Part shown: positions 1-16,261 of the stretch, one piece after another
How the letters are laid out: every line of letters starts with the position of its first letter
Position numbering within the stretch: the stretch's first letter is position 1
Assembly: GCF_020097835.1 (NCBI RefSeq)
Contig: NZ_CP083666.1
Location: 1,178,001-1,242,000, forward strand
Origin: Haloprofundus halobius
Lineage (GTDB): Archaea > Halobacteriota > Halobacteria > Halobacteriales > Haloferacaceae
Reading direction: 5' to 3'
DNA: 64,000 nucleotides
Position numbers and translations under genes: made by a program
Notes under the pieces: model-generated
The model's input: the letters and a program-made list of their open reading frames with translations, nothing else
What the model was told of the DNA's origin: nothing
Database searches by the model: none

Positions 1-1286
1 TCGAACCGATGCGTCGCCGTCCGAATCGACTTCTTCCCCGTCTCGAACGCGGCGAGCGTCTCCCTCGACACCTCGGCGGCCGCCTCCCGGTCGCGCTCGT
101 CCATAATCGCCGTCTCGGCGAACACGGCGTCGTGCTCGTTGCCCGAATCGACTCCGTTGTCCGCGTCGTCACCGAACAACGCCCGCCCGCTCGTCGCCTC
201 CGGGGCCTCGACGCCCGAGAGGTCGCACAGCGTGTCGAACAGGTCGACGAGCGAGACGAGGTCCGAGCGTCGCTCCCCGGCGGGAACCTCGGGGCCGCTC
301 ACGACGAGCGGGACGTGCAGCAGTTCGTCGTACAGGAAGTAGCCGTGGTACATCGTTCCGTGCTCGCCGAAACACTCGCCGTGGTCGGAGGTGAGCACGA
401 CGTGCGTCTGCTCGCGCCGCCCCGTCTCGTCGAGCCAGTCGAACAGCGCGCCGAGTCGGTCGTCCAGATAGCGGACGCAGGCGCGGTACCACGCTCGAAG
501 GACCGAGAGTTCCGCGTCGGTGAGATAGTCGCCGGTCTCGTACTGGCGCATCGCGATGCTCGTCGCCGACGCGCCGTCGGCCGCCGCGAACAGCCGTTCG
601 GGTCGCACGTCGTCGCGGTCGAGGCGCACCGTCGAGGGGAGAAACTCCTCCAGTAGTGGAAGCAGGGGTCGGTGGAGTTCGGGCGTCTCCTCGCGCATGT
701 ACGGCTTCGGCACCCGGTACGGCGCGTGGACCGTCGTGAGATTCGCCATCGCGAACCACGGCGCGTCGGCCTCGGCGACGAACCGGCGGAGTTTCTCCAG
801 TTTGATCTCGGTGTAGTAGTCGTTGCCGCGGGTGGCGATTCGGAACAGGTCACGGCGGACGAACCCGTCGGTGAGCAGTTGCCGGAGGTACGGCAGCGAC
901 GGTCGCTTGGCCATCTCCTCGTACACCTCGTAGTACTCGTCGAAGCCGCGGTCGAGACCGACCGGCGACCCCATCTTCGACGGCCCCGGAATCCCGATTG
1001 TGTCGTACCCCGCGTCGCGGAACCGCTCGGCCATCGTCGTCTCGTCGGCCGACAGCGTCGGCCACGCGCCGGCGAACCCCGTCTCGGAGGGGTAGCGCCC
1101 GGTGAACAGCGCGCCGTGCGACGGCGGCGTCCACGACCCGGCGGCGAACGCGTTCTCGAACGTCGTCCCCTCGGCGGCGAGGCGGTCGAGGTTCGGCGTC
1201 GGTGGTGCGTCGTCGTCGTAGCAGGAGAGCGCGTCGACGCGGAGGGTGTCGCAGACGACGAGGAGGACGTTAGGTGGAGGGCCCAT
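1..1286 (-). CDS. AlkP-superfamily (sulfatase-like) hydrolase, 3' end cut by window
   Basis: The reading frame starts at ATG 1284-1286 and runs off the left edge, leaving 428 codons. The start MGPPPNVLLVVCDTLR carries the first metal-binding Asp, and TSDHGECFGEHG in the second half supplies the second metal site, so the alkaline phosphatase/sulfatase fold is clear. At the nucleophile position it has WTPPSHGALFTG, so Thr replaces the Cys of CxPSR. Formylglycine sulfatase chemistry is therefore unlikely, and phosphatase or phosphotransferase chemistry with a Thr nucleophile is a better guess. No signal peptide or membrane segment is seen, so it should be cytosolic. It is divergent from the glycosyltransferase at 1404, and a TATA-like GATATTACC lies near 1305-1313. 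Substrate unknown; a glycan or lipid-linked sugar is inferred from neighbours. Confidence 0.85.
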   Translation of the reverse strand, partial: MGPPPNVLLVVCDTLRVDALSCYDDDAPPTPNLDRLAAEGTTFENAFAAGSWTPPSHGALFTGRYPSETGFAGAWPTLSADETTMAERFRDAGYDTIGIPGPSKMGSPVGLDRGFDEYYEVYEEMAKRPSLPYLRQLLTDGFVRRDLFRIATRGNDYYTEIKLEKLRRFVAEADAPWFAMANLTTVHAPYRVPKPYMREETPELHRPLLPLLEEFLPSTVRLDRDDVRPERLFAAADGASATSIAMRQYETGDYLTDAELSVLRAWYRACVRYLDDRLGALFDWLDETGRREQTHVVLTSDHGECFGEHGTMYHGYFLYDELLHVPLVVSGPEVPAGERRSDLVSLVDLFDTLCDLSGVEAPEATSGRALFGDDADNGVDSGNEHDAVFAETAIMDERDREAAAEVSRETLAAFETGKKSIRTATHRF

Positions 1287-1373
1287 GGCGGCCGTTTCGA
1301 TGGAACGGTAATATCGTTTGTGTGTCAGAACCCGCCGTCGACGGGGTGACGGCGTCAGACGGAGTCCAGCGGA

Positions 1374-1379
1374 TTTATA
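1374..1379 (+). promoter_or_regulatory. TATA element of the 1404 glycosyltransferase gene
   Basis: TTTATA lies 25-30 bases before the GTG at 1404, the spacing expected for a leaderless haloarchaeal transcript. It supports GTG 1404 as the start. Confidence 0.6.
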
Positions 1380-1403
1380 CGCCTCTCGCCCGCCGCTTCG
1401 CCC

Positions 1404-2438
1404 GTGAACCGACCGAGCGCGCGGGTCGCGATGCTGTATCAGGACCCCCATCCCGCACACCGCGGCTTCGCCGAGGCCGTCGACGCCGACCTCGTCGACT
1501 TCCAGCGACACTCGTTGGGCCCGCTCTCCGACAGCGTCGTCGGCGACGTGTACAACGGGCTTCGGTATCCCTCGTACGACGTGTATCTCGTCGAGGGCTC
1601 GCGACCGCTGTACGCCGCGCTCGCGCACCGCGCGGTCCGGCGCTCGAAACTCGTTTACCTCTGCGCGGACCACGGCCTCTACAGCCTCGGCCGCGCCGAC
1701 TTCGAGGGGAGTTCGGGGTTCAAATCGCTCGTCGGCCGCTTCGGGAGACCGGCCGTCAGGGAGATCGGGTCGCGCTTCGTCGACGGCGTCGTCGCCGTCT
1801 CGGCGTTCGCCGCCGACTTCACGCGCCCCGTCGTCGGCCCCGACACGCCCATCGAAGTCGCTCATCCCTTCATTCAACCGGACGTGTACGACGCGCTCGG
1901 CGGCGTCTCCCCCGCGCTGGACGCGAACGTCGCCGTCACCGTCGGTCGGCCGTGGCGCTACAAGGGTGTCGACATGCTCGTCGAGGCGTGGCCGACGGTC
2001 CGCGAGTCGTTCCCCGAGGCGGAACTGCACGTCGTCGGCGGCGGTCATCCAGGGTCCTATGCCGAGACGCCGGGCGTCGAGGTCCGCGGCTACGTCGAGA
2101 ATCTGGCCGACGCCTTCGCGCCCGCCTCGCTCTACGCCCAACCGTCGCGGATGGACACGTTCCCCGTCAGCGTGCTCGAAGCGATGCGTGCCGGCCTGCC
2201 GCCGCTCGTCACCGAGACGACGGGGACGCGCTCGGAGGCCGGCGCACTCTCTTCGGACCTCGTCGTCGACCCCTCCCCCGAGGCGCTCGCGGCGGGCGTC
2301 GTCGCCTACTTCGAACGCGACGGGGCCGAGCGGCGAGAACTCTCCTCGCGCGCCCGCGAGCGCGGCGCGACGTTCGACGCCGAGACCCGAAAGCGCGCGT
2401 TCGCCGAGGCGTTCGATACCGTTCTCGAAGCACTTTAA
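1404..2438 (+). CDS. Glycosyltransferase, GT4-like (GT-B fold)
   Basis: This 344-residue protein (GTG start) looks like a retaining GT-B glycosyltransferase. The C-terminal half has the usual features: VTVGRPWRYKGVDMLVEAW around residue 175, ELHVVGGG around 210, and YAQPSRMDTFPVSVLEAMRAGLPPLVT around 245, with the family-4 acidic residue in VLEAM. It likely transfers a nucleotide-activated sugar to a lipid-linked or protein glycan on the cytosolic face. It is followed after 24 bases by a phosphodiesterase-like AlkP protein and then a sulfatase-like gene, so the three may be co-transcribed. Donor and acceptor cannot be read from sequence. Confidence 0.85.
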   Translation: MNRPSARVAMLYQDPHPAHRGFAEAVDADLVDFQRHSLGPLSDSVVGDVYNGLRYPSYDVYLVEGSRPLYAALAHRAVRRSKLVYLCADHGLYSLGRADFEGSSGFKSLVGRFGRPAVREIGSRFVDGVVAVSAFAADFTRPVVGPDTPIEVAHPFIQPDVYDALGGVSPALDANVAVTVGRPWRYKGVDMLVEAWPTVRESFPEAELHVVGGGHPGSYAETPGVEVRGYVENLADAFAPASLYAQPSRMDTFPVSVLEAMRAGLPPLVTETTGTRSEAGALSSDLVVDPSPEALAAGVVAYFERDGAERRELSSRARERGATFDAETRKRAFAEAFDTVLEAL

Positions 2439-2462
2439 CGCGGGTGCGTCGATAGCCCGGAC

Positions 2463-4007
2463 ATGACCGTCTACGTCGTCGGACTCGACGGGGCCGACTG
2501 GTCGCTGCTCCGCGACGGTATCGACGCGGGCGACCTCCCGGGACTGGCCCGCATCGCCGACGAGGGCGTCACCGGGAATCTGGAGAGCACGCTCCCGCCC
2601 ATCACCTTCCCCGCCTGGAAATGCTACTCGACCGGGAAGACGCCCGGCAAACTCGGTGTATACGAGTGGTTCGGCTTCGACCGTGAGTCGCGGTCGATCA
2701 CGACGAACGACTCCTCGGACTTCCGCTCGCGGGAGTACTGGGACGTACTGGCCGACCGAGGGTTCACTCCAGCGGTCGTCAACATGCCGACGACGCACCC
2801 GCCGAACACCGACGACGGCGTGCTGACCGTCGCCGGGAGCCCCGCCTCCGAGCACGGCGAGTTCACGAAACCGGCGTCGCTCAAGGCCGAACTACTGGAC
2901 GCGGTGCCGAACTACCGAACGAAACCCGACCTCGTGCTCGACGAGGCGACGCCCGAGGAACTCGTCTCGGAGGCGACGACGCTCGCCGACCAGCGCTTCG
3001 ACGCCGCTGAGTGGTTCGCCGACGAGAAGGGCTGCGACCTCGTCCACCTCACCGTCTTCGTCACCGACACGGTCCAGCACCGACTCTGGGACCAGCCGGA
3101 GAAGATTCGGGAGCTGTACGAACGCATCGACCGCCGCATCGCGGCACTGCTGGACCGCGAGGACACGGAGGCGGTGGTTTTGATGAGCGATCACGGGTTC
3201 ACCGAGATAGACGAGACGTTCCTCGTCAACGAGTGGCTCGCCGACCGCGGCGACCTCACCGTCGGCGACGCGGGCGGCCGCGAGGTACTCGCCTCCGTCG
3301 GCGTCACCCGCGAGCGACTCAAGCGCCTCGTCGACCGCCTCGGCCTCGTCAACCTCGCGCAGGGGCTGCTCCCGGAGTCGCTGCAGCGCTTCTTCCCGAG
3401 CGAGAGCGGCCGCGTCGCAATCCAGGACGCACCTATCGACTGGACGGAGACGAAAGCGATCTCGCTCGGCCGCGGCCCCATCTACCTCAACGACGCCGCC
3501 TTCGAGAGCGAAGCGGCGAAGCGAGCCTATCGGACGTCGCTGTCGGAGGCGCTCTCGTCGCTGGAGACGCCCGACGGCGACCCCGTCGCGTCGGCGGTCC
3601 ACAAGCCGGACGACCTCTATTCGGGCGACCTCTACCGCGCGCCGGACCTCGTCGTCGAGTACGCGACGGGCGTTGACGCGCCCGAGGCCGTCGGCGGCCG
3701 CGTCTTCGGCGAGCGGACCGAGTGGCTGGCGACGCACCGCAGGCAGGGCGTCTTCGGTGCGTGGGGCGAGGAGTTCAGTTCCGGTCGGTTCGACTGCAGC
3801 CTCTACGACCTCGCGCCCACCATCCTCCACTGGTTCGGTGCGCCGGTTCCCCGGGACGTCGACGGCGACGTCCAGCGGGCGATCCTCATCGGCGAACCCC
3901 AACAGCGGAGTGTCGAGGAGGGACCGGAGACGGCGACGACCGGCGGCGGGGCGACGGCGGGCGACGAGGTACAGGAGACGCTGCGCGACTTGGGGTACAT
4001 GGACTGA
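2463..4007 (+). CDS. Type I phosphodiesterase/nucleotide pyrophosphatase-like AlkP-superfamily protein
   Basis: This 514-residue protein begins MTVYVVGLDGADWSLL, giving the metal-binding Asp, and has PPITFPAWKCYSTGKTPG around residues 45-60. That is the Thr-nucleophile motif of the nucleotide pyrophosphatase/phosphodiesterase branch. AVVLMSDHGFTEID near residue 240 supplies the second metal site. It probably hydrolyses or transfers a phosphoester or phosphodiester, such as a sugar nucleotide or lipid-phosphosugar. No signal peptide is seen. The C terminus ends VQETLRDLGYMD, a tail shared with three other AlkP proteins in this locus. It lies 24 bases after the glycosyltransferase and is probably in the same operon. 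Confidence 0.85.
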   Translation: MTVYVVGLDGADWSLLRDGIDAGDLPGLARIADEGVTGNLESTLPPITFPAWKCYSTGKTPGKLGVYEWFGFDRESRSITTNDSSDFRSREYWDVLADRGFTPAVVNMPTTHPPNTDDGVLTVAGSPASEHGEFTKPASLKAELLDAVPNYRTKPDLVLDEATPEELVSEATTLADQRFDAAEWFADEKGCDLVHLTVFVTDTVQHRLWDQPEKIRELYERIDRRIAALLDREDTEAVVLMSDHGFTEIDETFLVNEWLADRGDLTVGDAGGREVLASVGVTRERLKRLVDRLGLVNLAQGLLPESLQRFFPSESGRVAIQDAPIDWTETKAISLGRGPIYLNDAAFESEAAKRAYRTSLSEALSSLETPDGDPVASAVHKPDDLYSGDLYRAPDLVVEYATGVDAPEAVGGRVFGERTEWLATHRRQGVFGAWGEEFSSGRFDCSLYDLAPTILHWFGAPVPRDVDGDVQRAILIGEPQQRSVEEGPETATTGGGATAGDEVQETLRDLGYMD

Positions 4008-4103
4008 GCATCGGAGGCAGACGCCGACGGCGCTGTGGCTCGAACCCCCGCGAAACTCGCGAAAACTCACAAAATTAAAACGAACTGCGGACCTCGGTGA
4101 GGT

Positions 4104-5471
4104 ATGTCCGACCGCCCGAACATCCTCCTCGTCTCCTGGGACAGCGTCCGCGCCGACCACCTCTCCACGCACGGCTACGAGCGCGAGACCGCCCCCTTTC
4201 TGTCGGGCGTCGCCGACGACGGCCTCGTCTTCGAGGACGCCCAGGTGCCGGGCGTCGGCACCATCACGAGTTTCTCCGGCGCGTTCACCGGCGCGCACGC
4301 CGACGCGACACAGCAGTCCATCGAACCCGCAGACTGGAAGGCGGCCAACGCCGACCGCCGCCTGCTCTCGGAGGCGCTCTCGGACGCGGGCTACCACACC
4401 GGCGCGGTCCACTCGAACGCCCTCATGAGCCGATTCTACGGCTGGGACCGCGGCTGGGACGTGTACAAGGACAACGTCGTCACCGAGTCCGGCGGCGACT
4501 CCGACTCCGCGAAGTGGTGGAATCAGGTGAAGAAAGAGCGCCTCTTGCCGACGCTCCGACGCATGGGCGTCGCCGGCGCGGTCATCCATGGCCGGAACAT
4601 CGCGCTGAAGACGCCGTCGTACGTCGAGTGGGAGCGCATGTGGGACGACGTCGAGCAGTTCGTCCGCGACGCGCCCGAACCGTGGTTCCTGTGGGTGCTG
4701 CTCGTCGACACCCACCACCCGTGGTGCGCGCCGCCCGACTACCGCGAGTGGGAGCAACCGGGCTTCCGCGGCGCGCACGCGTGGAACTACGTCATGCGCC
4801 GCTACCCCGAGTGGACCGGCGACCGCCGCCCCGCCATCGTCAACGCCTACGACAACGAGATTCGCCACGCCGACGGGTTCCTCCGAAAGTTAGACGGACT
4901 GCTGGAGGAGATGGAAAACGACGACGCGGCGCTCGTCGTCCACAGCGACCACGGCGACGAACTCGGCGAGCACGGCGAGTACGGCCACTCCTCCCAGCGG
5001 ATGTACGACACGCTCACCCGCGTCCCGCTGGTGATGCGCAACGTCGGCGAGACGGGCCGCGTCGACGGTCCGCACACGCTGCTCGACCTCGGAAGTACGG
5101 TTCTGGATATCGCCGGGAGCGACGAGCGCCTCGCCGACCGACCGTCGCTGCTCGGCGACGAACGCGAAAAGCGAGAGTGGGTCGTCGTCGAGAACCTCGC
5201 AGGCGAGGGCGACGCCCGCGCAGCGGCCGTCGGCGACGAGTGGAAGGTACTTCACCACCCCGACACCGGGTGGCACGCCTACTATCGCCCGGACGACCCG
5301 CTGGAGCGCGAGGACCGCTGGGGCGGCCACCCCGAGGAACTCGAAGCCGTACTTCGGGCGCACCTCGTCGACAGAGAAGGCGTCACCGTCACCGGAAAGA
5401 GGGGCGACGACGGCGACGACGGGATGAGCGACGTGCAGGAACGGCTGACGAACCTCGGCTACATCGACTGA
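4104..5471 (+). CDS. Sulfatase-like AlkP-superfamily hydrolase
   Basis: This 455-residue protein has the superfamily metal sites NILLVSWDSVRADHL at the N terminus and VHSDHGDELGEHGEYGH near residue 280. The nucleophile segment reads VGTITSFSGAFTG, with Thr where sulfatases have the formylglycine Cys. It should therefore not be assumed to cleave sulfate esters. It has no signal peptide. A TATA-like AAAATTAAAAC near 4073-4083 gives it its own promoter. The C terminus ends VQERLTNLGYID. The gene ends at the left boundary of the low-GC TrkH segment and may once have been continuous with the 8.1-10.4 kb homologues. Confidence 0.85.
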   Translation: MSDRPNILLVSWDSVRADHLSTHGYERETAPFLSGVADDGLVFEDAQVPGVGTITSFSGAFTGAHADATQQSIEPADWKAANADRRLLSEALSDAGYHTGAVHSNALMSRFYGWDRGWDVYKDNVVTESGGDSDSAKWWNQVKKERLLPTLRRMGVAGAVIHGRNIALKTPSYVEWERMWDDVEQFVRDAPEPWFLWVLLVDTHHPWCAPPDYREWEQPGFRGAHAWNYVMRRYPEWTGDRRPAIVNAYDNEIRHADGFLRKLDGLLEEMENDDAALVVHSDHGDELGEHGEYGHSSQRMYDTLTRVPLVMRNVGETGRVDGPHTLLDLGSTVLDIAGSDERLADRPSLLGDEREKREWVVVENLAGEGDARAAAVGDEWKVLHHPDTGWHAYYRPDDPLEREDRWGGHPEELEAVLRAHLVDREGVTVTGKRGDDGDDGMSDVQERLTNLGYID

Positions 5472-5474
5472 AAC

Positions 5475-5540
5475 GGCTCTGTCGAAACCCTCAGAAGCTG
5501 ACAAAATTCCTCTGCTGCATACAGAGGGTGTATGCAGCAG
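5475..5540. repeat. IS-end/MITE-like sequence, left boundary of the TrkH segment
   Basis: It begins GGCTCTGTCGAAACCCTC (5475-5492) and continues to a perfect 12-base inverted repeat, CTGCTGCATACA at 5512-5523 and its complement at 5529-5540, with a 5-base loop. Related sequences occur inverted at 7984-8042, at 57100-57154, and (hairpin part only) at 56389-56425. No transposase gene is near. The hairpin could also terminate transcription of the upstream gene. Confidence 0.6.
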
Positions 5541-5580
5541 ACGAAGGATGTTCTGAGAGCAGTACGCCTACTAATGGCAG

Positions 5581-7128
5581 TTACTGCCGCCAAAACGTCG
5601 GTGTAAGGATGACCAGTACCGAGAGTACTTCCAAGCGGCCAATCCACATTAGAAAGACCATGTAGAGTTTTGCGGCATCCGAAAACGGCAGGAAGCTGTT
5701 CATTGGGCCAACAACACCGAAGCCCGGGCCAATGTTCCCCAGCGTGGCAATGGCGACGCTCATCGCCTCAAGCCCAGATAACGACACGCCAGATGTTCGT
5801 AAGCTGTCGAGATACAGAACCACCGTCGAGAGGACAAATATCGTCAAAAAGATCATTATGAACACGAGTACATCTCGAATTGTCTCCTCGTCAACGACTT
5901 CCTGGTCAAGTCGTAGTGGTTTAATGGCCTCAGGATGGACGGACGTGAACAGCGTCCGGAAGACTGCCTTCTTGACGAGAACCCACCTGACAATCTTGAT
6001 CGAACCGGCAGCCGATCCCGCGGATCCGCCTAAGAAATACGCAAACAACAGTATTGTCTGCGCGGAGGCATCCCAGGTGTTGAAATCCATACTCGCGTAT
6101 CCGGTCGTCGTCACAATGGCAATCACCTGAAAGAGCCCCTGCCGGAGCGAATTTTCGAGGTTTCCGGGAATGATGTCAAGGGTCGCGGGTGGTTCGGCGA
6201 GTCCAACGCCGAGAAAGAGCACTGCCGAGATAAGGATTCCAAAGCCGAGGATGGCAAGTAGGTACGTACGGAACTCTGTGTTGTTGGTTAACCGGCGAGG
6301 CTTTCCCTGAAAGACGTACCAGAACAGGGCAAAGTTCGTCCCTGCGACGACCATGAACGGCATCACTGCCCACTGGACGGCAGGCGTGAACGCCTCCACA
6401 CTCCGTGCCTCCGGGGAGAATCCACCGGTAGGCAGTGTCGTGAGTGCGTGCGCAACCGCGTTGTAGAGGGTCATGTTCGGCGCCAATCCACCTAGATGCA
6501 ACCCGTAATAGACGACAATTGCGAGAACGGTGAATCCGATGTAAATGCCCCATAGCCCCCGCGCAGTATGCTGAATACGCGGTGTCAGCTTCTCCAGCGA
6601 AATTCCTGGTGCTTCCTGATTCATGATCTGAGCACCCCCAACTGATAGCTCTGGCAGGATTGCGACCATTAACACGAGAATGCCCATCCCACCGAGCCAC
6701 TGGGTGAGCTGGCGCCACATCAGCATCGCGTAGCCATGGCGCTCAACCGAGATCTCCCCGAGAACAGTAGCACCGGTCGTCGTAAATCCACTCATGCTCT
6801 CGAACAGAGCGTTGACAGGGTTCGCAATAGTGCCCGTTCCAGCGACGAGGTACGGAACCATCCCCACCAACGGCACAACCAGCCACGCAAGACTTACTAA
6901 GAGGAACGCTTCCCGGTGTCTCAGCTCGCCATCGTTTCGAACTCGCTCTAAGAGGGAACCACCGCCAACCATGAGCACACTAGTGGTGATGAATGGAATC
7001 GGATTTTCGCCGTAATAGAGCGCCAGAACAAGCGGGAACAGCGGCGTAATGCCGATGTATTTGAGAACAGTCCCGACAAGGGCCACGCTTACCCTATAAT
7101 CGACATAGACGCTCGGTGTGCGGGCCAT
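5581..7128 (-). CDS. trkH: TrkH-family potassium uptake protein
   Basis: This 515-residue polytopic membrane protein imports K+ as the pore subunit of a Trk/Ktr system. The chain starts in a hydrophobic stretch near residue 10 and has the repeated pore-loop pattern of the family, for example SGFTTTGATVL near residue 110, TLPTGGFSPEA near 225, TTTGYASMDFN near 345 and LGNIGPGFG near 465. Its length is normal for the family. GC content and codon choice are visibly lower than in flanking genes, suggesting transfer. No TrkA gene is adjacent; the cytosolic partner may be elsewhere or replaced by the universal stress protein nearby. Start is ATG 7128. Confidence 0.9.
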   Translation of the reverse strand: MARTPSVYVDYRVSVALVGTVLKYIGITPLFPLVLALYYGENPIPFITTSVLMVGGGSLLERVRNDGELRHREAFLLVSLAWLVVPLVGMVPYLVAGTGTIANPVNALFESMSGFTTTGATVLGEISVERHGYAMLMWRQLTQWLGGMGILVLMVAILPELSVGGAQIMNQEAPGISLEKLTPRIQHTARGLWGIYIGFTVLAIVVYYGLHLGGLAPNMTLYNAVAHALTTLPTGGFSPEARSVEAFTPAVQWAVMPFMVVAGTNFALFWYVFQGKPRRLTNNTEFRTYLLAILGFGILISAVLFLGVGLAEPPATLDIIPGNLENSLRQGLFQVIAIVTTTGYASMDFNTWDASAQTILLFAYFLGGSAGSAAGSIKIVRWVLVKKAVFRTLFTSVHPEAIKPLRLDQEVVDEETIRDVLVFIMIFLTIFVLSTVVLYLDSLRTSGVSLSGLEAMSVAIATLGNIGPGFGVVGPMNSFLPFSDAAKLYMVFLMWIGRLEVLSVLVILTPTFWRQ

Positions 7129-7216
7129 TGAACAGCTATAGTAGTCAAACGATGAACGGATGGACGTTTCGGTTCGGTAGCTCTACGGAGAAACGATTCG
7201 TCGTCTCATCGTCAGG

Positions 7217-7336
7217 TCACTCTTGTTCTTGGATTCTGTCCCATTCTTCCACACAGCTCTCACAGAGAAATCCGGTGAATCCATCCACATTATATCTCTG
7301 AACAGTCGTATCGTCTCCACACCGCTCACATTTCAT
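7217..7336 (-). CDS. 39-residue two-CxxC zinc-finger microprotein
   Basis: A short ORF from ATG 7334-7336 to TGA 7217-7219 encodes a 39-residue protein with CERC at residues 3-6 and CESC at 25-28. This is a compact zinc-binding knuckle pair and little else. Small zinc-finger proteins of this kind are a recognised haloarchaeal class. It sits in the intergenic region between trkH and the Usp gene on the same strand and belongs to the low-GC segment. Cys pairing and size argue for a real gene, but expression cannot be judged. Function unknown; protein or RNA binding is possible. Confidence 0.6.
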   Translation of the reverse strand: MKCERCGDDTTVQRYNVDGFTGFLCESCVEEWDRIQEQE

Positions 7337-7371
7337 AGTTAGTCCTGATAATTAGCTTCGGTAATCTCTGT

Positions 7372-7827
7372 TCACGCATCATGGGCGAAAACGATTCTCT
7401 CTTGCTCCTTCGGGAGTGCAATCACCGGGATTTTGCTCTGTTTGAGTAGCTCAGCCGTGACATCTCCAGTGAGGAATTTAATCCATTTGTTCCCGGCTCG
7501 TGGGACGAACGCAATTGCGGTCGCTTTTTCTTCTTCAGCGGCTATTCGAATCGTTGCTCCAACGTTACGCCCATATAATGTACGGAATTCAAGCGTTGGT
7601 CCGTTATCGGGGAAGACATCCAAAAAGGATTCATATGCTTCCTCAGCGAAACCTTGACGCTGTTCAACGGATGCCTTGTCGGGTACGCCTTCACCTTTCT
7701 CAATGACGTGAACAACAATGACGTGTGAATCCTCATGAGCAAAGTGGTAGATGATTCGGGCAGTATTCGCTGCGTCGTCTGGACCAGCGATCGGTACAAA
7801 CACTTTGTCGAATAAATCGGAAGCCAT
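7372..7827 (-). CDS. UspA-family universal stress protein
   Basis: This 151-residue single Usp domain starts MASDLFDKVFVPIAGPDD at ATG 7827, chosen because GGAGAG precedes it. An in-frame ATG 42 bases upstream is less likely. VIVVHVIEKG and the C-terminal GDVTAELLKQSKIPVIALP follow the family pattern. The nucleotide-binding G-x2-G-x9-G-(S/T) loop is only partly present (GNKWIKFLTGDVT), so ATP binding is uncertain. Usp proteins often sit beside ion transporters as regulators; co-location with trkH on the low-GC segment suggests a role in K+ uptake control. This is inference. Confidence 0.85.
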   Translation of the reverse strand: MASDLFDKVFVPIAGPDDAANTARIIYHFAHEDSHVIVVHVIEKGEGVPDKASVEQRQGFAEEAYESFLDVFPDNGPTLEFRTLYGRNVGATIRIAAEEEKATAIAFVPRAGNKWIKFLTGDVTAELLKQSKIPVIALPKEQERIVFAHDA

Positions 7828-7983
7828 TATCTCTCCTTTTGGCTCTCCGACCAAATTTCCTCCGGTCATATTAACGGATGCGTAATAACGGGCGTTTTGA
7901 TTTCGGCTCCAACAATCTCCCTAAACGCCAGGTGAATTGCCAATCGGTAGGACACGAATTTGAGAAACCTCTGTGCGAGATAT

Positions 7984-8042
7984 GCGCCCTGTATTCAGCA
8001 CGGCTTCGAAAACCCATCACCAATCGAGGGTTTCAACAAGGG
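7984..8042. repeat. IS-end/MITE-like sequence, right boundary of the TrkH segment
   Basis: On the minus strand this reads TTGTTGAAACCCTC (8039-8026), then about 30 bases, then CTGAATACAGGGCGC (7998-7984). It matches the left copy at 5475 in order and spacing (about 55 bases) but in inverted orientation, so the GAAACCCTC ends point outward on both sides. The segment 5475-8042 therefore has the layout of a mobile unit with diverged inverted termini and no transposase. Confidence 0.55.
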
Positions 8043-8062
8043 TACTGAAACAGTTTAGACAC

Positions 8063-8980
8063 TCACAGATAGCCGAGCGCGCTAAGCTTGTCCTCGATAG
8101 CGCCGCTCTCGAGGTTTCGCTCAGTTTCGGGGTCGTGCGTTCCCTCGTCCTCGGCGCTCGTCTCGTACCACGGCACCCGCCGGACCGACGGCAGGGGCAC
8201 CTTCGGGTGGCCGTAGACGCCCCACTCACCGTTCGCGTTGGCGTGGTCGGCGCTGATAACGACGCGTTCGGCGTCAAGGTTTTCGAGGAGGAGGGAAACG
8301 TCGTCCAGCACGTAGCGGAGGTTCGCCCGGTAGCTCTCCCAGACTCGCCCCTCGGTGAGTTCGCCGCGTCGCAGTCGGTCCCACGGCGAGTCCCACCCCG
8401 CGCCTTCGCCGAGCGTCTCGCAGTTCATCCCGCCGCCGAGGGGGTCCGGCACCGACGGGAAGTGCGGCTGCATGTAGTGGACGACGAGGCGGTCGGCGTC
8501 CGTCTCCCGGCCCGCCGCGATGGCGCGGTCGGTGATGGGACGCGCCGGAATCGTCCCGGCGTCGTCGTCCCACGCGTAGCGCCAGACGTCGTCGAGGCGC
8601 AGCAGGTCGCTTTCGGACAACACGCGGTGACTGAACGGATTCCCGGTGACGTACGCCGTCCGGCGCATCTCGTCTCGTCGCTCGTCGGTGAACGTCCGCT
8701 CCATCCAGTCGATGGAGGAACTGCCGACCGAGACGAGTTCGCCGGGCCGATTCAGGAACGGATACTCGTCGGCGACTTCGCGCATCAGGTCGACGCGACA
8801 GGCGTCGAGGAGGACGAGCGCGTCCCACTCGCGGTCGTAGACGTTCGTTCCGGTGGGGTAGAACTCGTTGACGCGGCGAAGGCCGCCGAGGTACAGTTCG
8901 TAACCGCTCTCGCGGAGGCCGGCGACGCCGTCGTCTCTGACTCGACCCTTCGTGTCGGAAACCCAGTCGCCCAGCGTCAT
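8063..8980 (-). CDS. Short AlkP-superfamily (sulfatase-like) protein
   Basis: This 305-residue protein starts at ATG 8978-8980, overlapping the upstream stop by ATGA. It is divergent for the family: ALVLLDACRVDLMREV holds the first metal-site Asp near residue 55, and VVISADHANANGEWGVYGHPKVPLP near 240 holds the Asp-His pair. At the nucleophile position there is a Ser-rich VGSSSIDWMERTF instead of CxPSR. It is shorter than its neighbours (455-514 residues). The end SGAIEDKLSALGYL matches the tail of the other AlkP proteins here. No signal peptide. It is probably the last gene of a four-gene operon with two glycosyltransferases, and its substrate is likely glycan-linked. Confidence 0.8.
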   Translation of the reverse strand: MTLGDWVSDTKGRVRDDGVAGLRESGYELYLGGLRRVNEFYPTGTNVYDREWDALVLLDACRVDLMREVADEYPFLNRPGELVSVGSSSIDWMERTFTDERRDEMRRTAYVTGNPFSHRVLSESDLLRLDDVWRYAWDDDAGTIPARPITDRAIAAGRETDADRLVVHYMQPHFPSVPDPLGGGMNCETLGEGAGWDSPWDRLRRGELTEGRVWESYRANLRYVLDDVSLLLENLDAERVVISADHANANGEWGVYGHPKVPLPSVRRVPWYETSAEDEGTHDPETERNLESGAIEDKLSALGYL

Positions 8981-10365
8981 TCCACGTACCCCAGATCCCG
9001 CAGGTGTTGTTCGACCATCTCGTCGTCCTCGTCGACGGCGACGTCGCCGCTGCGGAGGCGACGCATCCGTTCTCGATGCTCGTCCAGCGCCGCGCTCAGC
9101 GCTTCGTACTCGTCGGGGTTCGACTCCCGGCGGTCGTCTTCCGGTCGTTCCTCGGGCGTCTCCCGCACGTCGAAGAAGAACTCGCCGTCGTCGGCGTGGC
9201 GGAGCAGTTTCCAGCCGTCGGCGCGCCGGGCGTAACAGCGACCGTAGTCGACCTGCCGACCCACGTCGCCGAAGGCGTACTCGCGGGCGTCGACGTCGCC
9301 GCGGACGAGTTCGAGCGCCGACTCGCCCTGCCACGCCGGCGGGGCGTCGACGCCCACCGCCTCGGCGAGCGTCGGCGCGGTGTCGAGCAGTCGAATCTGG
9401 CCGCCGAGGGTCCCGTCCTCGTGTTCTGAGCCGAGACCGTCGAGAACGAACGGCACGCGGACGACGCCTTCCCAGAACTCGGGTGGATGCCCGGCGTGGT
9501 CGTGTTCGCCGACGAGTTCGCCGTGATCGGCGGTGAGACAGACCGCGGTTTCGTCCCGCGCTCCCCGCTCCTCCAACGCGCCGACGAGCGCCGCGAACTG
9601 GGCGTCGGTGTAGGCGCACTCGGCGTCGTAGAGGCAGCGAATCGTCTCCCACTCCTCGTCGGTCATCTCCTCGGGGTGGTGGGTGCCTTTCCGCGAGAGG
9701 CGGCGGCAGTCGGCGACGCTGCGCGGCGCGTCGAGGAACCGCCGTTGGTACTCGTCGGGAGCCTCGTAGGGGTGGTGGACGTCCATGTAGTGCAGCCACG
9801 CGAACCACGGTTGCTCGTCCGGCACCGTGTCGACCCAGTCGAGGAAGCGCCGGTTCAGCGACTCGGCGCGCTCGTACTCGCTGGCGTCGCCGCCGGAGGC
9901 CGTCGCCATCGCGGCGTCGACGCGGTTGTAGACGCGCTCGATGGTCCGAAAGAGGGGACCACTTTTGTCGAGGTTCGACTGGACGAACTGCTTCAACTTT
10001 CCCGCTTCGGCGGACCCGCTGGCGTCGTGCATCAGGTCGAAGCCGCGGTCGTAGTGGTAACTGCCGCTGGCGAAGTGGTTGTCCGTGAAGCCCGCGGTGG
10101 CGTAGCCGTTCTCGCGGAGTCGCTCGGCGAGCGTCACCACACCGCGTTCCGTTTTTCCCTCGGATTCGGGAATGCCCAGCCCTTCGATGCTCGCGAAGTG
10201 ACGACTCGCGTGAATCGCCGGGAACGACGCGGGCGTCGACGGCCCGTTAGCGACGCACTCCGTGAACTCTAGTGCGCCGTCGGCGAACGACCGGGCGAAC
10301 GGCATCACCCGGTCGTCCACCCGGTCGGCGCGCAGCGAGTCGACGGTGACGAGGAGGACGTTCAT
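8977..10365 (-). CDS. Sulfatase-like AlkP-superfamily hydrolase
   Basis: This 462-residue protein begins MNVLLVTVDSLRADRVDD (metal-site Asp) at ATG 10363-10365, four bases inside the upstream glycosyltransferase gene. TADHGELVGEHDHAGHPPEFW near residue 275 completes the metal site. The nucleophile segment reads NGPSTPASFPAIHASR, again Thr rather than formylglycine Cys. The tail is VEQHLRDLGYVE. No signal peptide, so it is predicted cytosolic. Overlaps on both sides (ATGA) show tight translational coupling in the operon 12601 to 8063. Confidence 0.85.
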   Translation of the reverse strand: MNVLLVTVDSLRADRVDDRVMPFARSFADGALEFTECVANGPSTPASFPAIHASRHFASIEGLGIPESEGKTERGVVTLAERLRENGYATAGFTDNHFASGSYHYDRGFDLMHDASGSAEAGKLKQFVQSNLDKSGPLFRTIERVYNRVDAAMATASGGDASEYERAESLNRRFLDWVDTVPDEQPWFAWLHYMDVHHPYEAPDEYQRRFLDAPRSVADCRRLSRKGTHHPEEMTDEEWETIRCLYDAECAYTDAQFAALVGALEERGARDETAVCLTADHGELVGEHDHAGHPPEFWEGVVRVPFVLDGLGSEHEDGTLGGQIRLLDTAPTLAEAVGVDAPPAWQGESALELVRGDVDAREYAFGDVGRQVDYGRCYARRADGWKLLRHADDGEFFFDVRETPEERPEDDRRESNPDEYEALSAALDEHRERMRRLRSGDVAVDEDDEMVEQHLRDLGYVE

Positions 10366-11444
10366 GGCCGACTCTCCGCGTCGGAGGGTAAAAGCGCACG
10401 GTACCTCGATTCGAGTTCGTCGACCACCTCGGTCCACGTCGGCAGCGGCGTCGCGGGCGCGTCGAGTCCGACGACGCGCCGAACGGCGTCGGCCACCGTC
10501 TCGGGGTCGACGCGCGAGACGCCCAGACAGTCCGCCCGCTCGGCCCAGTCGACGAGCGCCCCCGCCTCCCTGACAAGCGCGGGCGTCCCGGCGGCGAGCG
10601 ACTCGGCGACGGTCATCCCGTACGCCTCGTGTGTGGAGAGCGCGAGGTGCGCCGCCGCGCCCGCGTAGAGACTCGGCAGGTCATCGTCGTCGACGAAGCC
10701 GAGAAACTCGATGCGGTCGGACACGCCGGTTTCGCGGGCGAGCGTCTCCAGTTCCGTTCGATAGGGGCCGCTCCCGGCGACGAGCAGGTCGTACTCCGGG
10801 AGCGACCCGAGCGCCCGAATCGCGTGCTGGACGCCTTTGTACTCGACGAGTCGCCCGACCGTGAGCAGGTACGGCCGTGGGCGCTCGCGGGCGAGCGGCG
10901 TCGCGTTCTCGAACCGTTGGACGTCGAGGCCGTTCGGAATCACCGTCGCGTCGACGCCGAAATCCTTCCTCAATCGCTCCCGCTCCCACCCGCTGACCGC
11001 GACGACGGCGTCGGCGCGGCGGAGCGCCCGCGCGCCGATGGGTCGGTAGAGGGCGAGTAACCGGTTCCGGACGCTGTCGGCGCTCGCCCCGTGGTAGTGC
11101 GGCGTGACGACGAACGGCCGCGATCCGCTTCCGAGAGCGGCCAACGCGAGCGGAAACGAGTGGTAGTTGTGCGCGTGGACGACATCGGCGTCGCCGGCCG
11201 CGTCGGCGACGACCCGCGCGACGCCCGGTGCGAAGTGGAACGCACCGCCGGGGGCGACGCCGCGACATCTCCGGATTCGGACGCCGTCTCGTCGCTCGCG
11301 CCCGGAGACGTCGGCCCCGGCGTCGGCGGTGACGACGGTGACCTGGTGACCGCGCGCGACGAGTTCCTCGCTGACTCGTTGGACGTGCGTCTCGACGCCG
11401 CCCGCGCGGGGCGGATAGCGGTGGGTGACTTGAAGAACCTTCAT
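10362..11444 (-). CDS. Glycosyltransferase, GT4-like (GT-B fold)
   Basis: This 360-residue protein starts MKVLQVTHRYPPRAGGVETHV, the typical Gly-rich N-terminal loop of family-4 enzymes that binds the acceptor side. VVHAHNYHSFP near residue 85, LLTVGRLVEYKGVQHAIRAL near 195 and STHEAYGMTVAESLAAGTPALV near 280 are the remaining family signatures, with the E-x7-E pair at the nucleotide-sugar site. It likely acts on a lipid-linked or surface glycan at the cytosolic face. It begins 14 bases after the preceding GT2 gene and overlaps the following AlkP gene. Confidence 0.9.
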   Translation of the reverse strand: MKVLQVTHRYPPRAGGVETHVQRVSEELVARGHQVTVVTADAGADVSGRERRDGVRIRRCRGVAPGGAFHFAPGVARVVADAAGDADVVHAHNYHSFPLALAALGSGSRPFVVTPHYHGASADSVRNRLLALYRPIGARALRRADAVVAVSGWERERLRKDFGVDATVIPNGLDVQRFENATPLARERPRPYLLTVGRLVEYKGVQHAIRALGSLPEYDLLVAGSGPYRTELETLARETGVSDRIEFLGFVDDDDLPSLYAGAAAHLALSTHEAYGMTVAESLAAGTPALVREAGALVDWAERADCLGVSRVDPETVADAVRRVVGLDAPATPLPTWTEVVDELESRYRALLPSDAESRP

Positions 11445-11458
11445 CGGAGCACGGGGCG

Positions 11459-12601
11459 CTACTCGTACTGCTCGCGCAGTTCGGCGTCGACTTCCCAGAT
11501 GGGACCGCCCTCGCCCTGCAGGAGACGGACGCTCGCCCACCACAACGACATCTGCGTGTCGAACAGGGCGTACGCCGACTGCGCCGGGCCGAGGCGCTCC
11601 GTCGATCCGAGCGCGACAGTCGTCAGAAGAAGCGCCGGGACGGCGAGCGCAAGCGGTCCGCCGGCGACCGCGAGCGCGAGGGTGAGCACGACGATGCCGC
11701 CGGCCAGCGCCCACGGTGAGAACACCATGAAACACCAGTTGAACGGGAGGACGACCCAGCCGTACAGCCCGTGGCGGAACAGCGCGTCGCGGTTGCGCGA
11801 GAGCAAGCGAATCAAGCCCATCGCCCGGCGGTCCTTCTGCTTTCGTCGCTTCCGGAACGCCGAGTGCGACGCCTCCATGTACTTCACGTCGGGGTCGAAC
11901 ACGACGCGCCCACCGTTTTTCCGAATCTTCATCGCGAGTTCGGTGTCGTCGGCGATGGAGTCCTCGTCGATGGGGACGATGGCGTCGCGCTCGAACGCCG
12001 AGAACGGCCCGTGGAAGATGAACGTCGAGTCGAGATGCGATTCGAGGGTTTGAATCCGCGCCTGGATATCTCGGTATCCCTCCTCGACCTCGCTGCCGCC
12101 GAGCACGTCGACGTTGCGACCGGTGACGCCCTGCACGTCGGGATCGGCGAGGTTCGCCACCGCCTCGCGGAGCGCGTCGAGCGCGATTTTGGAGTCGCAG
12201 TCGGTCTTGACGACGACCTCGTTCGACGCCGCGGCGTACGCCTCGTTGAGCGCGATTGCGAGTCCGCGTCGTTCGTCCTCGCGTATGAGCGTCAGCGTCG
12301 GCGCGTCGCGTTCCTCGAAGAACGCCTCGACGAGTTCGGGCGTCGCGTCGTTGCTGGAGTCGACGACGACCACTTCGACCTTCTCCATCGGATAGTCGAG
12401 CGAGAGGATATCTTCGAGTTTGTTCTCGACGATACGCTCCTCGTTGTACGTCGGGAGCACGACGCTGACAGTCGGTTCGGTCGGGCGCTTGTCGGCGGGC
12501 GACCCCGCGGGGCGGACGAGACCCAACAGCAACAGGAACAGCGCGTACGGCAGCCCGGCCAGGAAGAAAAACAGGCCGGAGAGCCGAGCGAGACGCTTCA
12601 T
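11459..12601 (-). CDS. Membrane-associated family-2 glycosyltransferase
   Basis: This 380-residue protein has one N-terminal hydrophobic segment (about residues 8-28), a GT2 catalytic domain and about two C-terminal membrane segments around residues 285-340. Catalytic marks are VSVVLPTYNEERIVENKLEDIL, VVVDSSNDAT, KTDCDSKIAL (DxD-type metal site) and the later ED-type region DDTELAMKIRKNGGRV. Start ATG 12601 is preferred because it opens directly into the membrane segment; ATG 12628 would add nine residues. First gene of a probable operon ending at 8063, divergent from aglJ. Product could be a processive or lipid-linked sugar transferase. Confidence 0.85.
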   Translation of the reverse strand: MKRLARLSGLFFFLAGLPYALFLLLLGLVRPAGSPADKRPTEPTVSVVLPTYNEERIVENKLEDILSLDYPMEKVEVVVVDSSNDATPELVEAFFEERDAPTLTLIREDERRGLAIALNEAYAAASNEVVVKTDCDSKIALDALREAVANLADPDVQGVTGRNVDVLGGSEVEEGYRDIQARIQTLESHLDSTFIFHGPFSAFERDAIVPIDEDSIADDTELAMKIRKNGGRVVFDPDVKYMEASHSAFRKRRKQKDRRAMGLIRLLSRNRDALFRHGLYGWVVLPFNWCFMVFSPWALAGGIVVLTLALAVAGGPLALAVPALLLTTVALGSTERLGPAQSAYALFDTQMSLWWASVRLLQGEGGPIWEVDAELREQYE

Positions 12602-12758: not shown

Positions 12759-13718
12759 ATGGACCGCGCCGACGTCTGTGTGCTCCTCCCCACGTACGAC
12801 GAGGCCGAGACCATCGGCGAGGTCGTCGACGGCTACCGCGCGGAGGGGTTCTCCGACATCCTCGTCATCGACGGACACTCCACGGACGGCACGCGCGACA
12901 TCGCCAGACAGCACGGCGCACGCGTCGAGACTCAGTCGGGGACCGGGAAGGGACAGGCCATCCGCGAGGCGATGCAGTACATCGACGCGCCGTACGTGCT
13001 GATGGCCGACGGCGACGGCACGAATCCGCCGAGCGACGCGGGCGCGATGCTCGAACCGCTCGACCGCGGCTACGAACACGTCGTCGGCAACCGCTTCGCC
13101 GACATGCGCTCGGGTGCGATGACGGGGCTGAACAAACTCGGCAACCGCATCGTCAACCGCGCGTTCGCCTACATCCACGGCGAGGACTTCGTCGACATCC
13201 TCAGCGGCTACCGCGCGTTCACCCGCGACTCCTTCGAGCGGCTCCAGCTCACCGCCGACGGGTTCGGCATCGAGACGGAGATGTCTATCGAGTGCGCGAA
13301 GCGCGACGTGTCGACGGCGGTCGTGCCGGTCACCTACCACCCCCGCCCGGACGGGTCGGACACGAACCTCCGGCCGTTCCGCGACGGCAGCGTCATCTTC
13401 CTCGAACTCTACCGCCGAGCGAAGACGAACAACCCGCTGTTTTACTTCGGCAGCATCGGCACGCTCTCGACGCTCACCGGTGTTTTCCTGGCGTTTTACG
13501 TCGCCTACGAGTGGTTCGTCCCGCCGCGGACCTCTCACGAGGTCATCGCTCTCGGCGCGGCCGCGGGCATCCTCTTCGGCGTCCAACTGCTCATCTTCGG
13601 GGTGCTGGCGGACATGATTCTCACCTTCCACCGCGAACAGCTCCGTCGAATCGGCGAACTCGACGGCGAGGACGCCGACGCCTCGCGCACCAAAACGAAG
13701 CCGAGACAGAAACGCTAG
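12759..13718 (+). CDS. aglJ: AglJ-like dolichyl-phosphate hexosyltransferase
   Basis: This 319-residue GT2-fold protein has LLPTYDEAETIGEVVDGY and VIDGHSTDGTRDI at the N terminus, the metal site ADGDGTNPP near residue 88, and two C-terminal membrane helices (about 225-250 and 260-288). This architecture matches haloarchaeal AglJ, which adds the first hexose to dolichol phosphate in S-layer glycoprotein N-glycosylation in Haloferax volcanii. The known H. volcanii gene also lies near the leu/ilv cluster. Here its neighbours are AlkP-superfamily enzymes and glycosyltransferases instead of the aglB cluster. A DPM1-like dolichol-P-mannose synthase is the alternative. Confidence 0.85.
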   Translation: MDRADVCVLLPTYDEAETIGEVVDGYRAEGFSDILVIDGHSTDGTRDIARQHGARVETQSGTGKGQAIREAMQYIDAPYVLMADGDGTNPPSDAGAMLEPLDRGYEHVVGNRFADMRSGAMTGLNKLGNRIVNRAFAYIHGEDFVDILSGYRAFTRDSFERLQLTADGFGIETEMSIECAKRDVSTAVVPVTYHPRPDGSDTNLRPFRDGSVIFLELYRRAKTNNPLFYFGSIGTLSTLTGVFLAFYVAYEWFVPPRTSHEVIALGAAAGILFGVQLLIFGVLADMILTFHREQLRRIGELDGEDADASRTKTKPRQKR

Positions 13719-14088: not shown

Positions 14089-14168
14089 GGCGCGCTGTTC
14101 GGACTCGAACGACAAAAACCCCCCCGGCAGTCAGCGTCTTTATCCGACCGCCGCGCCAGATGGTTCGT

Positions 14169-14378
14169 ATGACGGAGTACACGACCGTCTCCATCCCGAA
14201 GGAACTCGCCGAACGCGTCGACGACACCATCGAGGGGACGAGTTTCTCCAGCACGAGCGACCTCGTCCGGTTCCTGCTGCGGAGCATCGTCATTCAGCAC
14301 CAGCGACAGGGCCAACTCACCGAGGCCGAATTCGAGGAGATCGCCGACCAGTTGACCGACCTCGGCTACCTGAAGTAG
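14169..14378 (+). CDS. Ribbon-helix-helix (CopG-like) DNA-binding protein
   Basis: This 69-residue protein begins MTEYTTVSIPKELAERVDD, a beta-strand plus helix, then FSSTSDLVRFLLRSIV, the second helix of a ribbon-helix-helix dimer. It probably binds DNA as a small transcription factor. TTTATCC about 25-30 bases upstream indicates a leaderless start. The tail ADQLTDLGYLK resembles the C-terminal LxxLGY tail of the nearby AlkP proteins; in this small protein it would follow the DNA-binding domain. Target unknown. Confidence 0.75.
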   Translation: MTEYTTVSIPKELAERVDDTIEGTSFSSTSDLVRFLLRSIVIQHQRQGQLTEAEFEEIADQLTDLGYLK

Positions 14379-14412
14379 CGACGCGGCCCGGGCGCTTACG
14401 GCCTCGTCCGAC

Positions 14413-14826
14413 TCACGTAAACGACTCCTGCGGCGGTTCGGCGTCGAGAATCGACAGTTCGAGTCGCGTCCCCGCCCGGTCGAACGCCGCGAGCGACGCG
14501 TCCTCCCACGGCGGAACCGCGACGAGAACGACTCCGGCGAGGTCGTCGCGTTTCGTCACTTCGAGTTTTCCCTGCGGGTGGCTGACGAACCGCGCGCGGC
14601 CACGACCCGCGGGGGTCGCGAGGTCGACCCCGAAGATGGCGTTGACCGACCGTCCGGCGTCGGGGAGATAAAAGTGGGTCAGTACGGGTGTCTCGGACTC
14701 CAACCCGAGGTCAGCCTCGAACTCGTCGGCTGGCGTCGCCGCCAGGACGACGTTCGCTCGCTCCGGTTCGGCGTCCTCGGCGAGGTCCAAGAGCACGTCG
14801 ACCAATCCACGGGTTACGTAGACCAC
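14413..14826 (-). CDS. Conserved haloarchaeal protein of unknown function, possible MPN-like fold
   Basis: This 137-residue protein starts MVYVTRGLVDVLLDLAEDAEPE. The pattern of an N-terminal helix, a central LTHFYLPD and RFVSHPQGKLEVTKRD then VVLVAVPPWE loosely recalls MPN/JAB domains, but the JAMM metal ligands (HxH and the distant Asp) are not present. If it has that fold it would be a non-catalytic version. No membrane segment or signal peptide. Same strand as the 14933 gene, which ends upstream of it. Confidence 0.6.
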   Translation of the reverse strand: MVYVTRGLVDVLLDLAEDAEPERANVVLAATPADEFEADLGLESETPVLTHFYLPDAGRSVNAIFGVDLATPAGRGRARFVSHPQGKLEVTKRDDLAGVVLVAVPPWEDASLAAFDRAGTRLELSILDAEPPQESFT

Positions 14827-14932
14827 GCGCGGGCGCTCCGGGTGCGGTGATATAACCTCGTTGACTCGGCGCGAGCGACCGCGCCGACCGCGTCGATGAG
14901 AGCGCTGGCGGGCCGACGATACCGTCTCGACG

Positions 14933-15616
14933 CTACCCGGAGACCATCGTCTTGAGCGTCTTCGCGTAGAGCGACGGCGTCCGCTTCCGCGAGTTCTCCA
15001 GCGCGTCGGCGAGCGCCGCCGTCGCGTTCTCGTGGATGCCCGCGCCGTGACCGACCAGAATCCGCTCGGGTTTCAGCCCCGACAGCGCACGCGTCGGCGG
15101 GAACAGACGCAGCATCGGGTGGACGCCGAGGCGTTCGCCCTCGACGAGGAAGTACGCCGCCGTCCCGAGCGACTCGGGGACGACGAGCGTGCCGCGGGAC
15201 TCGTCGTAGAGGCCGACCTCCTGCCACGGAGGCACCGTCGAGTTACGGACGGTGAGCGCCCGCACACCCGTGTCGCCGAGTTCGCGGCCGAAGCGCTTCA
15301 CGTCGGCGTTCAGTTTCCTCGCGACGCCGCTCATCCAGTCGGGGACGTACACCGAGACGCCGTGTCGACGGGCGAACGCCGCGGCGTCGCGCTTGTGGCG
15401 GTCCACGCCGACGACGACGCCCGACACGTCGCCGAACGCCGCGAGCAGGTCGTCGACGCCGTCGGCGTCCACGGGGTCGACGACCCACACGTCGCCGTCG
15501 AGTTCCAGCGCGTGGCTCGCCCGCTTCATCTCCTCGTCGGGGTGGGCGATCCACCCGACTCCGTGGTCCCACCGGTCGATCTCGCAGAGGTCCTCGCGGC
15601 CGCCTTTCATCGGCAT
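14933..15616 (-). CDS. Conserved haloarchaeal protein, MBL-like without metal motif
   Basis: This 227-residue protein has start ATG 15614-15616 supported by TTTATCC about 29 bases upstream. Segments GDVWVVDPVDADGVDDLL, VVVGVDRHKRDAAAFARRHG and PERILVGHGAGI resemble the strand-turn layout of metallo-beta-lactamase-like proteins. The HxHxDH signature is replaced (VDRHKRDA), so zinc hydrolase activity is doubtful. No membrane segment. I do not recognise a specific function. Confidence 0.65.
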   Translation of the reverse strand: MPMKGGREDLCEIDRWDHGVGWIAHPDEEMKRASHALELDGDVWVVDPVDADGVDDLLAAFGDVSGVVVGVDRHKRDAAAFARRHGVSVYVPDWMSGVARKLNADVKRFGRELGDTGVRALTVRNSTVPPWQEVGLYDESRGTLVVPESLGTAAYFLVEGERLGVHPMLRLFPPTRALSGLKPERILVGHGAGIHENATAALADALENSRKRTPSLYAKTLKTMVSG

Positions 15617-15763
15617 ACCTCTCGTTGGGACGGAAAACGGATAAATGGCGCTCCGGCGGGACGTGGGCGGTCCCTTCGGTGATCCGCGTCGACGCGCAGT
15701 CCCGACCGACCGGCGGTATCGACGAACAGAACGTTCAAGTCCGACTGTCTGTTGCTCTCGACT

Positions 15764-16261
15764 ATGGTCAGTCTCCGACGGCTGAAACCGCTCGTCGCCG
15801 GACTGCTCGGGTTAACCATCACCGGACTCGGGCATCTGTACCTGCGGCGGTGGCGACGCGGGGTCGCGTGGATTATCCTCGTGCTCGTCGTCGGGCAGGT
15901 GTTCGTCTCGCAAGCGACGCTCGATTTCGTCAACGCGTCGTTCTCGCAGGGCTCGCTGTTCACGCCGCAACAGACCCCGATTCCGTCGGAGACGCTCCAA
16001 GAGCTACTGCTGCTCTCGGTGCTCGCGACGGCCAGCGCCGTCGACGCGTACCTCGTCGGTGTCCGGAAGCTCCGAGACGCCGACGCGGAGGCCAGGTCGG
16101 CGTCCGGGTCCCGCGGCGCGGGCGTCCCCGATGCCGACGCGGCGCGGAACTGTCCGAACTGCGGCAAGGAGTTCGAAGCCGGGATGGAGTTCTGCCCGTG
16201 GTGTGCCGAGCGGGTCGCCGTCGACGACGCGGACGACTCCGGGGACCGAGACGCACCTTGA
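15764..16261 (+). CDS. Membrane protein with C-terminal zinc ribbon
   Basis: This 165-residue protein has two or three hydrophobic stretches (about residues 8-25, 30-50 and 75-97), then a flexible acidic linker and a C-terminal CPNCGKEFEAGMEFCPWC zinc ribbon near residues 130-150. The first part (GLGHLYLRRWRRGVAW) resembles small TM2-like or DUF-type membrane proteins seen beside zinc ribbons in archaea. Function unknown. A 34-base tandem repeat begins directly after its stop codon. Confidence 0.7.
   Translation: MVSLRRLKPLVAGLLGLTITGLGHLYLRRWRRGVAWIILVLVVGQVFVSQATLDFVNASFSQGSLFTPQQTPIPSETLQELLLLSVLATASAVDAYLVGVRKLRDADAEARSASGSRGAGVPDADAARNCPNCGKEFEAGMEFCPWCAERVAVDDADDSGDRDAP

Follow-up and report, generated by a model that had tools for sequence, protein, structure and literature searches.

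Seven alkaline phosphatase-superfamily proteins with a Thr or Ser at the nucleophile position in an aglB-anchored gene cluster of Haloprofundus halobius

The window analysed here, a stretch of 64,000 nucleotides from the 3.9-Mb genome of the haloarchaeon Haloprofundus halobius (contig NZ_CP083666.1, positions 1,178,001 to 1,242,000), opens with a series of genes encoding proteins of the alkaline phosphatase (AlkP) superfamily that alternate with glycosyltransferase genes. Our analysis suggests that they belong to an N-glycosylation cluster anchored by aglB, with seven putative cytosolic AlkP-fold enzymes that would modify glycans by means of a Thr or Ser nucleophile, and that at least some of the seven attach sulfate to the glycan rather than taking it off. 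We infer this function from the gene neighbourhood, the active sites and the precedent of another haloarchaeon.

Active sites of the seven proteins

The original prediction, made from the window, counted five AlkP-superfamily open reading frames, P3 to P7 (Table 1), all of which are present; two more AlkP genes, P1 and P2, lie just beyond its edge, directly upstream (L001:16089-17738 and 14320-15867) and followed by a flippase gene and aglB, so that the full set is seven and not five. Membership of the superfamily is indicated by Pfam for six of them (P1, P2 and P4 match PF01663; P3, P5 and P7 match PF00884), by profile comparison for P6, which has no Pfam family, and by invariant metal residues. 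A 19-member profile of the P6 family was matched by hhalign to that of the sulfatase-type group (98.8%, E = 5e-17), the match covering the half that contains the D-H motif. As had been predicted, this motif is conserved, and it is invariant in the family alignments. The PF00884 group presents invariant D13, T53, H204, D282 and H283, and the P6 family retains D59, S89 (Ser or Thr), H173, D245, H246 and H258. In P1, P2 and P4, D9, T48, D202-x3-H206, D243-H244 and H425 are all invariant and form a complete two-metal ligand set of the nucleotide pyrophosphatase/phosphodiesterase (NPP) type.

The nucleophile column is occupied by Thr in six of the seven proteins and by Ser in P6, in agreement with the four Thr-type proteins and one Ser-type protein originally proposed among the five. 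For P5, which Thr of the segment GTITSFSG was meant is ambiguous, the family alignment pointing to T53 and a pairwise alignment with a phosphoethanolamine transferase (MCR) to T55. Structure prediction, suggested at the outset as a check, supports the fold only, through a weak model of P5 (predicted local distance difference test, pLDDT, 51) from which neither the C-terminal tail nor the choice between T53 and T55 can be read; the model of P6 (pLDDT 46) is unusable. Judged by eye, P1 to P5 and P7 begin no more than a few residues from the first metal-ligand strand (P3, P5 and P7 at the strand itself), with no apparent signal peptide and, in P3, P5 and P7, no membrane segment, which fits the absence of an export signal claimed earlier; P6 has no clear membrane segment.

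The Pfam and NCBIfam names of these proteins, the strong sequence resemblance of P3 to sulfatases, and the Ser of P6, in principle a conceivable Ser-type site, all speak for true sulfatases, which would strip sulfate off by means of a formylglycine derived from Cys or Ser. The seven are indeed similar to S1 formylglycine sulfatases (e.g., choline sulfatase) in overall fold and in the D/D-H metal residues, but they lack the C/S-x-P/A-x-R motif: none has Cys at the site, and C-x-P-S-R is missing from all five proteins of the window, as first noticed, the aligned column being Thr (P3, P4, P5, P7) or Ser (P6). We aligned the nucleophile region of 117 proteins (the seven, seven others of this genome and those encoded near aglB in other genomes) and found Thr in 83, Ser in 29, Cys in three and a gap in two. 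The Arg of the maturation motif, at position +4, is present in all three Cys proteins (two from this genome, where a secondary contig encodes them, and one from the margin of the region taken from another genome) and in none of the 112 Thr/Ser proteins, which argues against the Ser members being sulfatases of the Ser type. True C-x-[PA]-[SA]-R sulfatases are present elsewhere in this genome. The formylglycine reading, Ser-type site included, was rejected on the missing +4 Arg and the Cys controls, and we consider it highly improbable. That the seven are not formylglycine enzymes is well supported by these alignments, which place no Cys or Ser of the formylglycine type at their site, and the label 'sulfatase' is misleading, as the original prediction had warned.

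Linkage to aglB and a common C-terminal tail

The predicted co-occurrence with glycosyltransferases, an AglJ-like protein and the N-glycan machinery is borne out by the gene order and by a survey of 51 haloarchaeal genomes, covering flanks of aglB of up to 20 kb in either direction, in which AlkP genes show strong enrichment at aglB. Of these genomes, 34 have one or more AlkP genes near aglB, 26 two or more and 21 three or more. Counted in genomes other than those of the own genus and among the best-scoring matches listed, 23 of 142 PF00884 matches fall within 20 kb of aglB against 1.7 expected (about 14-fold, P ~ 2e-19), and 12 of 139 PF01663 matches against 1.6 expected (about 7-fold, P ~ 1e-7), these P values being indicative in view of the restriction to top-scoring matches and the relatedness of the genomes. 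The block comprising P1 to P4 and P7 recurs in three genomes of another family, with 58-74% identity.

All seven proteins end in the pattern V-x3-L-x2-L-G-Y followed by up to four further residues. In all three groups these residues equal the catalytic ones in invariance, and they are preceded by an acidic linker that is almost without conservation. The LxxLGY tail is found in 102 of 110 aglB-linked AlkP proteins and in neither Cys-type sulfatase of this genome. It is also shared by haloarchaeal proteins resembling CysD, the small subunit of ATP sulfurylase, whose fold is unrelated to that of AlkP: these CysD-like proteins, which match PF01507 and score under the cut-offs for CysD, end in LRDLGYM in 17 of 17 cases, read from 12 loci. 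The tail is uncommon: two DNA patterns designed on it gave 14 matches in two complete genomes, all in AlkP or CysD-like genes; they represent a sample, since the patterns cover some codon choices alone. The tail is probably a docking or packing element.

Three further occurrences were recorded. An adjoining pair of CysD-like genes (L111:1219-2172 and 2444-3496; G000 C1:1776978-1778751) encodes two proteins ending in RLRDLGYM, and no further sulfate-activation gene was recognised beside this pair. A tailed Thr-type AlkP gene lies within about 6 kb of the gene for a second, divergent AglB-like protein (L007, G000 C1:105504-113847). Finally, proteins that end like the short ribbon-helix-helix-like protein of the window (Table 1) are encoded near aglB in four other genomes.

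Sulfate transfer and rival chemistries

The one experimental precedent for such proteins at aglB, a genetic one, comes from Halobacterium salinarum, in which three AlkP-domain genes of the aglB cluster have been studied (Zaretsky et al., 2025; PMC11980604). Deletion of VNG1056C (Agl30) or VNG1057C (Agl31) strongly lowered the di-sulfated N-glycan, and Haloferax volcanii expressing VNG1056C or VNG1057C made a sulfated glycan; Agl31 is soluble and Agl30 membrane-associated, without InterPro family. The parts of the paper covered here say nothing about the nucleophile, the donor or the C-terminus. Translation of the cloning primers given there indicates that VNG1056C ends in HLEDLGYL and VNG1057C in LEELGYT, and the detection primer for the third gene, VNG1063H, translates to KELGYIE. 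Agl30 and Agl31 are thus comparable to the seven proteins as AlkP-like members of an aglB-anchored cluster and, by these primers, in their LxxLGY C-termini, whereas they are two enzymes shown to act and the seven are genes known by sequence alone. P6, without a clear membrane segment, differs from the membrane-associated Agl30, and neither has a family match (in Pfam and InterPro, respectively).

We consider it rather likely, by analogy, that P3, P5, P6 and P7 are transferases of the Agl30/Agl31 kind that move sulfate to the lipid-linked N-glycan. Each of the four would have its own target sugar in the dolichol-phosphate-linked glycan and would sulfate it prior to flipping and transfer by AglB. 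A metal-bound Thr or Ser would take the sulfuryl group from an activated donor to form a covalent sulfo-Thr or sulfo-Ser, and a sugar hydroxyl would then accept this group in line; since without formylglycine the ester cannot be released by hemiacetal elimination, transfer would be favoured over hydrolysis. P1, P2 and P4, which belong to the same set and keep the two-metal phosphodiesterase site, may transfer or cleave phosphodiesters or may also transfer sulfate, and for these three phosphodiester chemistry is as likely as sulfate transfer. Another haloarchaeal protein, Agl7 of Hfx. volcanii, is reportedly responsible for glycan sulfation.

Phosphohydrolases or phosphotransferases had been proposed originally for all five proteins of the window; in this specific form the proposal does not stand beside the sulfotransfer precedent of Agl30 and Agl31, and it survives as a possibility for P1, P2 and P4 through their two-metal ligand set. 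These three might be hydrolases of the two-metal kind, either phosphodiesterases or pyrophosphatases, and split nucleotide sugars or sugars linked to dolichol phosphate as a means of pathway control or quality control. Their Thr and their complete, invariant ligand set are those of NPP phosphodiesterases and of PhnA (3szy), a phosphonoacetate hydrolase. In P4 the Thr aligns with the PhnA nucleophile, a position marked by Ala in the mutant entry 3t02. The closest solved relative is nevertheless distant (E = 7e-7), the PhnA equivalog cut-off is not reached, and P1, P2 and P4 differ from PhnA in their glycan locus and C-terminal tail, both shared with the sulfatase-type group. We therefore regard hydrolysis as possible but somewhat doubtful. 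EptA/LtaS-type phosphotransferases working on the cytosolic face would instead use the Thr to take a phospho-alcohol group (e.g., phosphoglycerol or phosphoethanolamine) off a donor, either lipid or nucleotide, and attach it to the lipid-linked glycan. P5 has the same D/T/D/H residues as EptA/MCR and LtaS/LtaP, with a Thr nucleophile, the D-H motif and a downstream His; by sequence, the proteins of solved structure closest to it are phosphoethanolamine transferases (6bne, E = 4e-13), whose Thr-to-Ala mutants align at the GTITSFSG segment, and its low-confidence model matches MCR-1 and LtaP, among sulfatases. The known enzymes, however, are anchored in the membrane with an exported catalytic domain, a hallmark not seen by eye in P3, P5 or P7; P5 reaches none of the NCBIfam cut-offs, the genetic work at aglB points to sulfation (PMC11980604), and no phospho-substituted haloarchaeal N-glycan appears in the literature covered. 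Such a transfer thus seems quite unlikely.

Several points weigh against sulfate transfer by the seven. No role in sulfation was detected for VNG1063H, the third AlkP protein of the Hbt. salinarum cluster (PMC11980604), and the likeness to Agl30 and Agl31 concerns the locus and primer-read C-termini. Seven sulfotransferases would be many for a single glycan, and P4 is nearer to phosphonoacetate hydrolase, and P5 to phosphoethanolamine transferases, than to any sulfotransferase. The tail is not exclusive either: E. coli CysD already ends in GYF (LKKRQGYF), with GY alone in common with the haloarchaeal tail, so that GY is older than this tail and the likeness between AlkP and CysD proteins may be convergent. 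A bacterial Thr-type relative with an N-terminal extension (L009:8984-11212) ends in SRLESLGYAH, which makes the tail neither purely haloarchaeal nor purely cytosolic and weakens the idea of a strictly haloarchaeal docking tag for CysD.

The sulfate donor raises a further difficulty. In the 51 genomes, ATP sulfurylase of the PF01747 type was not found, and adenosine 5'-phosphosulfate (APS) kinase (PF01583) gave P-loop-sized or weak partial matches only, none convincing; the weak partial matches (positions 4-117) occur in some genomes but not in this one. The usual donor, 3'-phosphoadenosine 5'-phosphosulfate (PAPS), may consequently be lacking; absence of the usual PAPS route is suggested by a search that left CysN and the canonical sulfotransferase families outside its scope. 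The presence of APS kinase or ATP sulfurylase failed as a correlate of AlkP number, as no genome has a convincing copy. A bolder scheme for haloarchaeal N-glycan sulfation, although we hold it unlikely, is that the AlkP-fold enzymes run the sulfatase reaction backwards through sulfo-Thr or sulfo-Ser with a donor other than PAPS (e.g., APS from the CysD-like proteins), the common tail joining transferases and sulfate-activating proteins into one assembly.

Gene order and meaning of the locus

From left to right, the cluster reads aglB, flippase, P1, P2 and P3 on the minus strand, a glycosyltransferase, P4 and P5 on the plus strand, a TrkH-Usp gene pair, then P6, P7 and two glycosyltransferases (GT4 and GT2) on the minus strand and an AglJ-like GT2 on the plus strand (Table 1). 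The start of P6 (8980) overlaps the stop of P7 (ATGA), and the start of P7 overlaps the stop of the upstream glycosyltransferase gene, by a few bases in each case, so these genes probably share one transcript.

Table 1. Features of the glycosylation cluster within the window (positions in nucleotides from the first letter of the window).
Feature	Position	Strand	Remarks
P3, AlkP superfamily, PF00884 type	1..1286	-	Thr nucleophile in SWTPPSHG; C-terminus outside the window, ending VERNLRELGYLE
GT4-like glycosyltransferase	1404..2438	+	Divergent from P3, upstream of P4
P4, AlkP superfamily, PF01663 type	2463..4007	+	Thr48 aligned with phosphonoacetate hydrolase nucleophile; full two-metal ligand set; tail VQETLRDLGYMD
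P5, AlkP superfamily, PF00884 type	4104..5471	+	Thr in GTITSFSG; tail VQERLTNLGYID
P6, small AlkP-like protein lacking a Pfam match	8063..8980	-	Ser89 at nucleophile column; D59/H173/D245/H246/H258; tail AIEDKLSALGYL
P7, AlkP superfamily, PF00884 type	8977..10365	-	Thr in PSTPASFP; tail VEQHLRDLGYVE
GT4-like glycosyltransferase	10362..11444	-	Assigned from its own sequence MKVLQVTHRYPPRAGGVETHVQ; same strand as P7 and P6, overlaps P7
Glycosyltransferase family 2	11459..12601	-	Same strand as P7 and P6
AglJ-like GT2	12759..13718	+	Last gene of the cluster
Short ribbon-helix-helix-like protein	14130..14378	+	C-terminal tail QLTDLGYLK

The TrkH and Usp genes (window positions 5581-7869), of low G+C content (0.53 against about 0.67), separate P5 from P6; this pair looks inserted, because the two flanking genes are nearly adjacent in Haloprofundus marisrubri (L008) and in genome G065. 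Among named species, H. marisrubri came out closest to this genome (92% for P5), and a scan of genome contigs with P5 gave matches only in this species and in two distant bacterial loci; the viral contigs searched contained no relatives.

Haloarchaea have a large class of genes that bear the annotation 'sulfatase' but whose products are unable to make the sulfatase cofactor. If this class corresponds to sulfotransferases, the enzymes responsible for the charge on the surface of archaeal cells would be named, and the question would be raised of how sulfate transfer is achieved by an AlkP fold. Haloarchaea reportedly sulfate their glycans, yet the 51 genomes present neither PF01747 nor a convincing APS kinase, which leaves a gap in sulfate activation. 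The LxxLGY tail provides a simple handle for finding and testing partners of these proteins.

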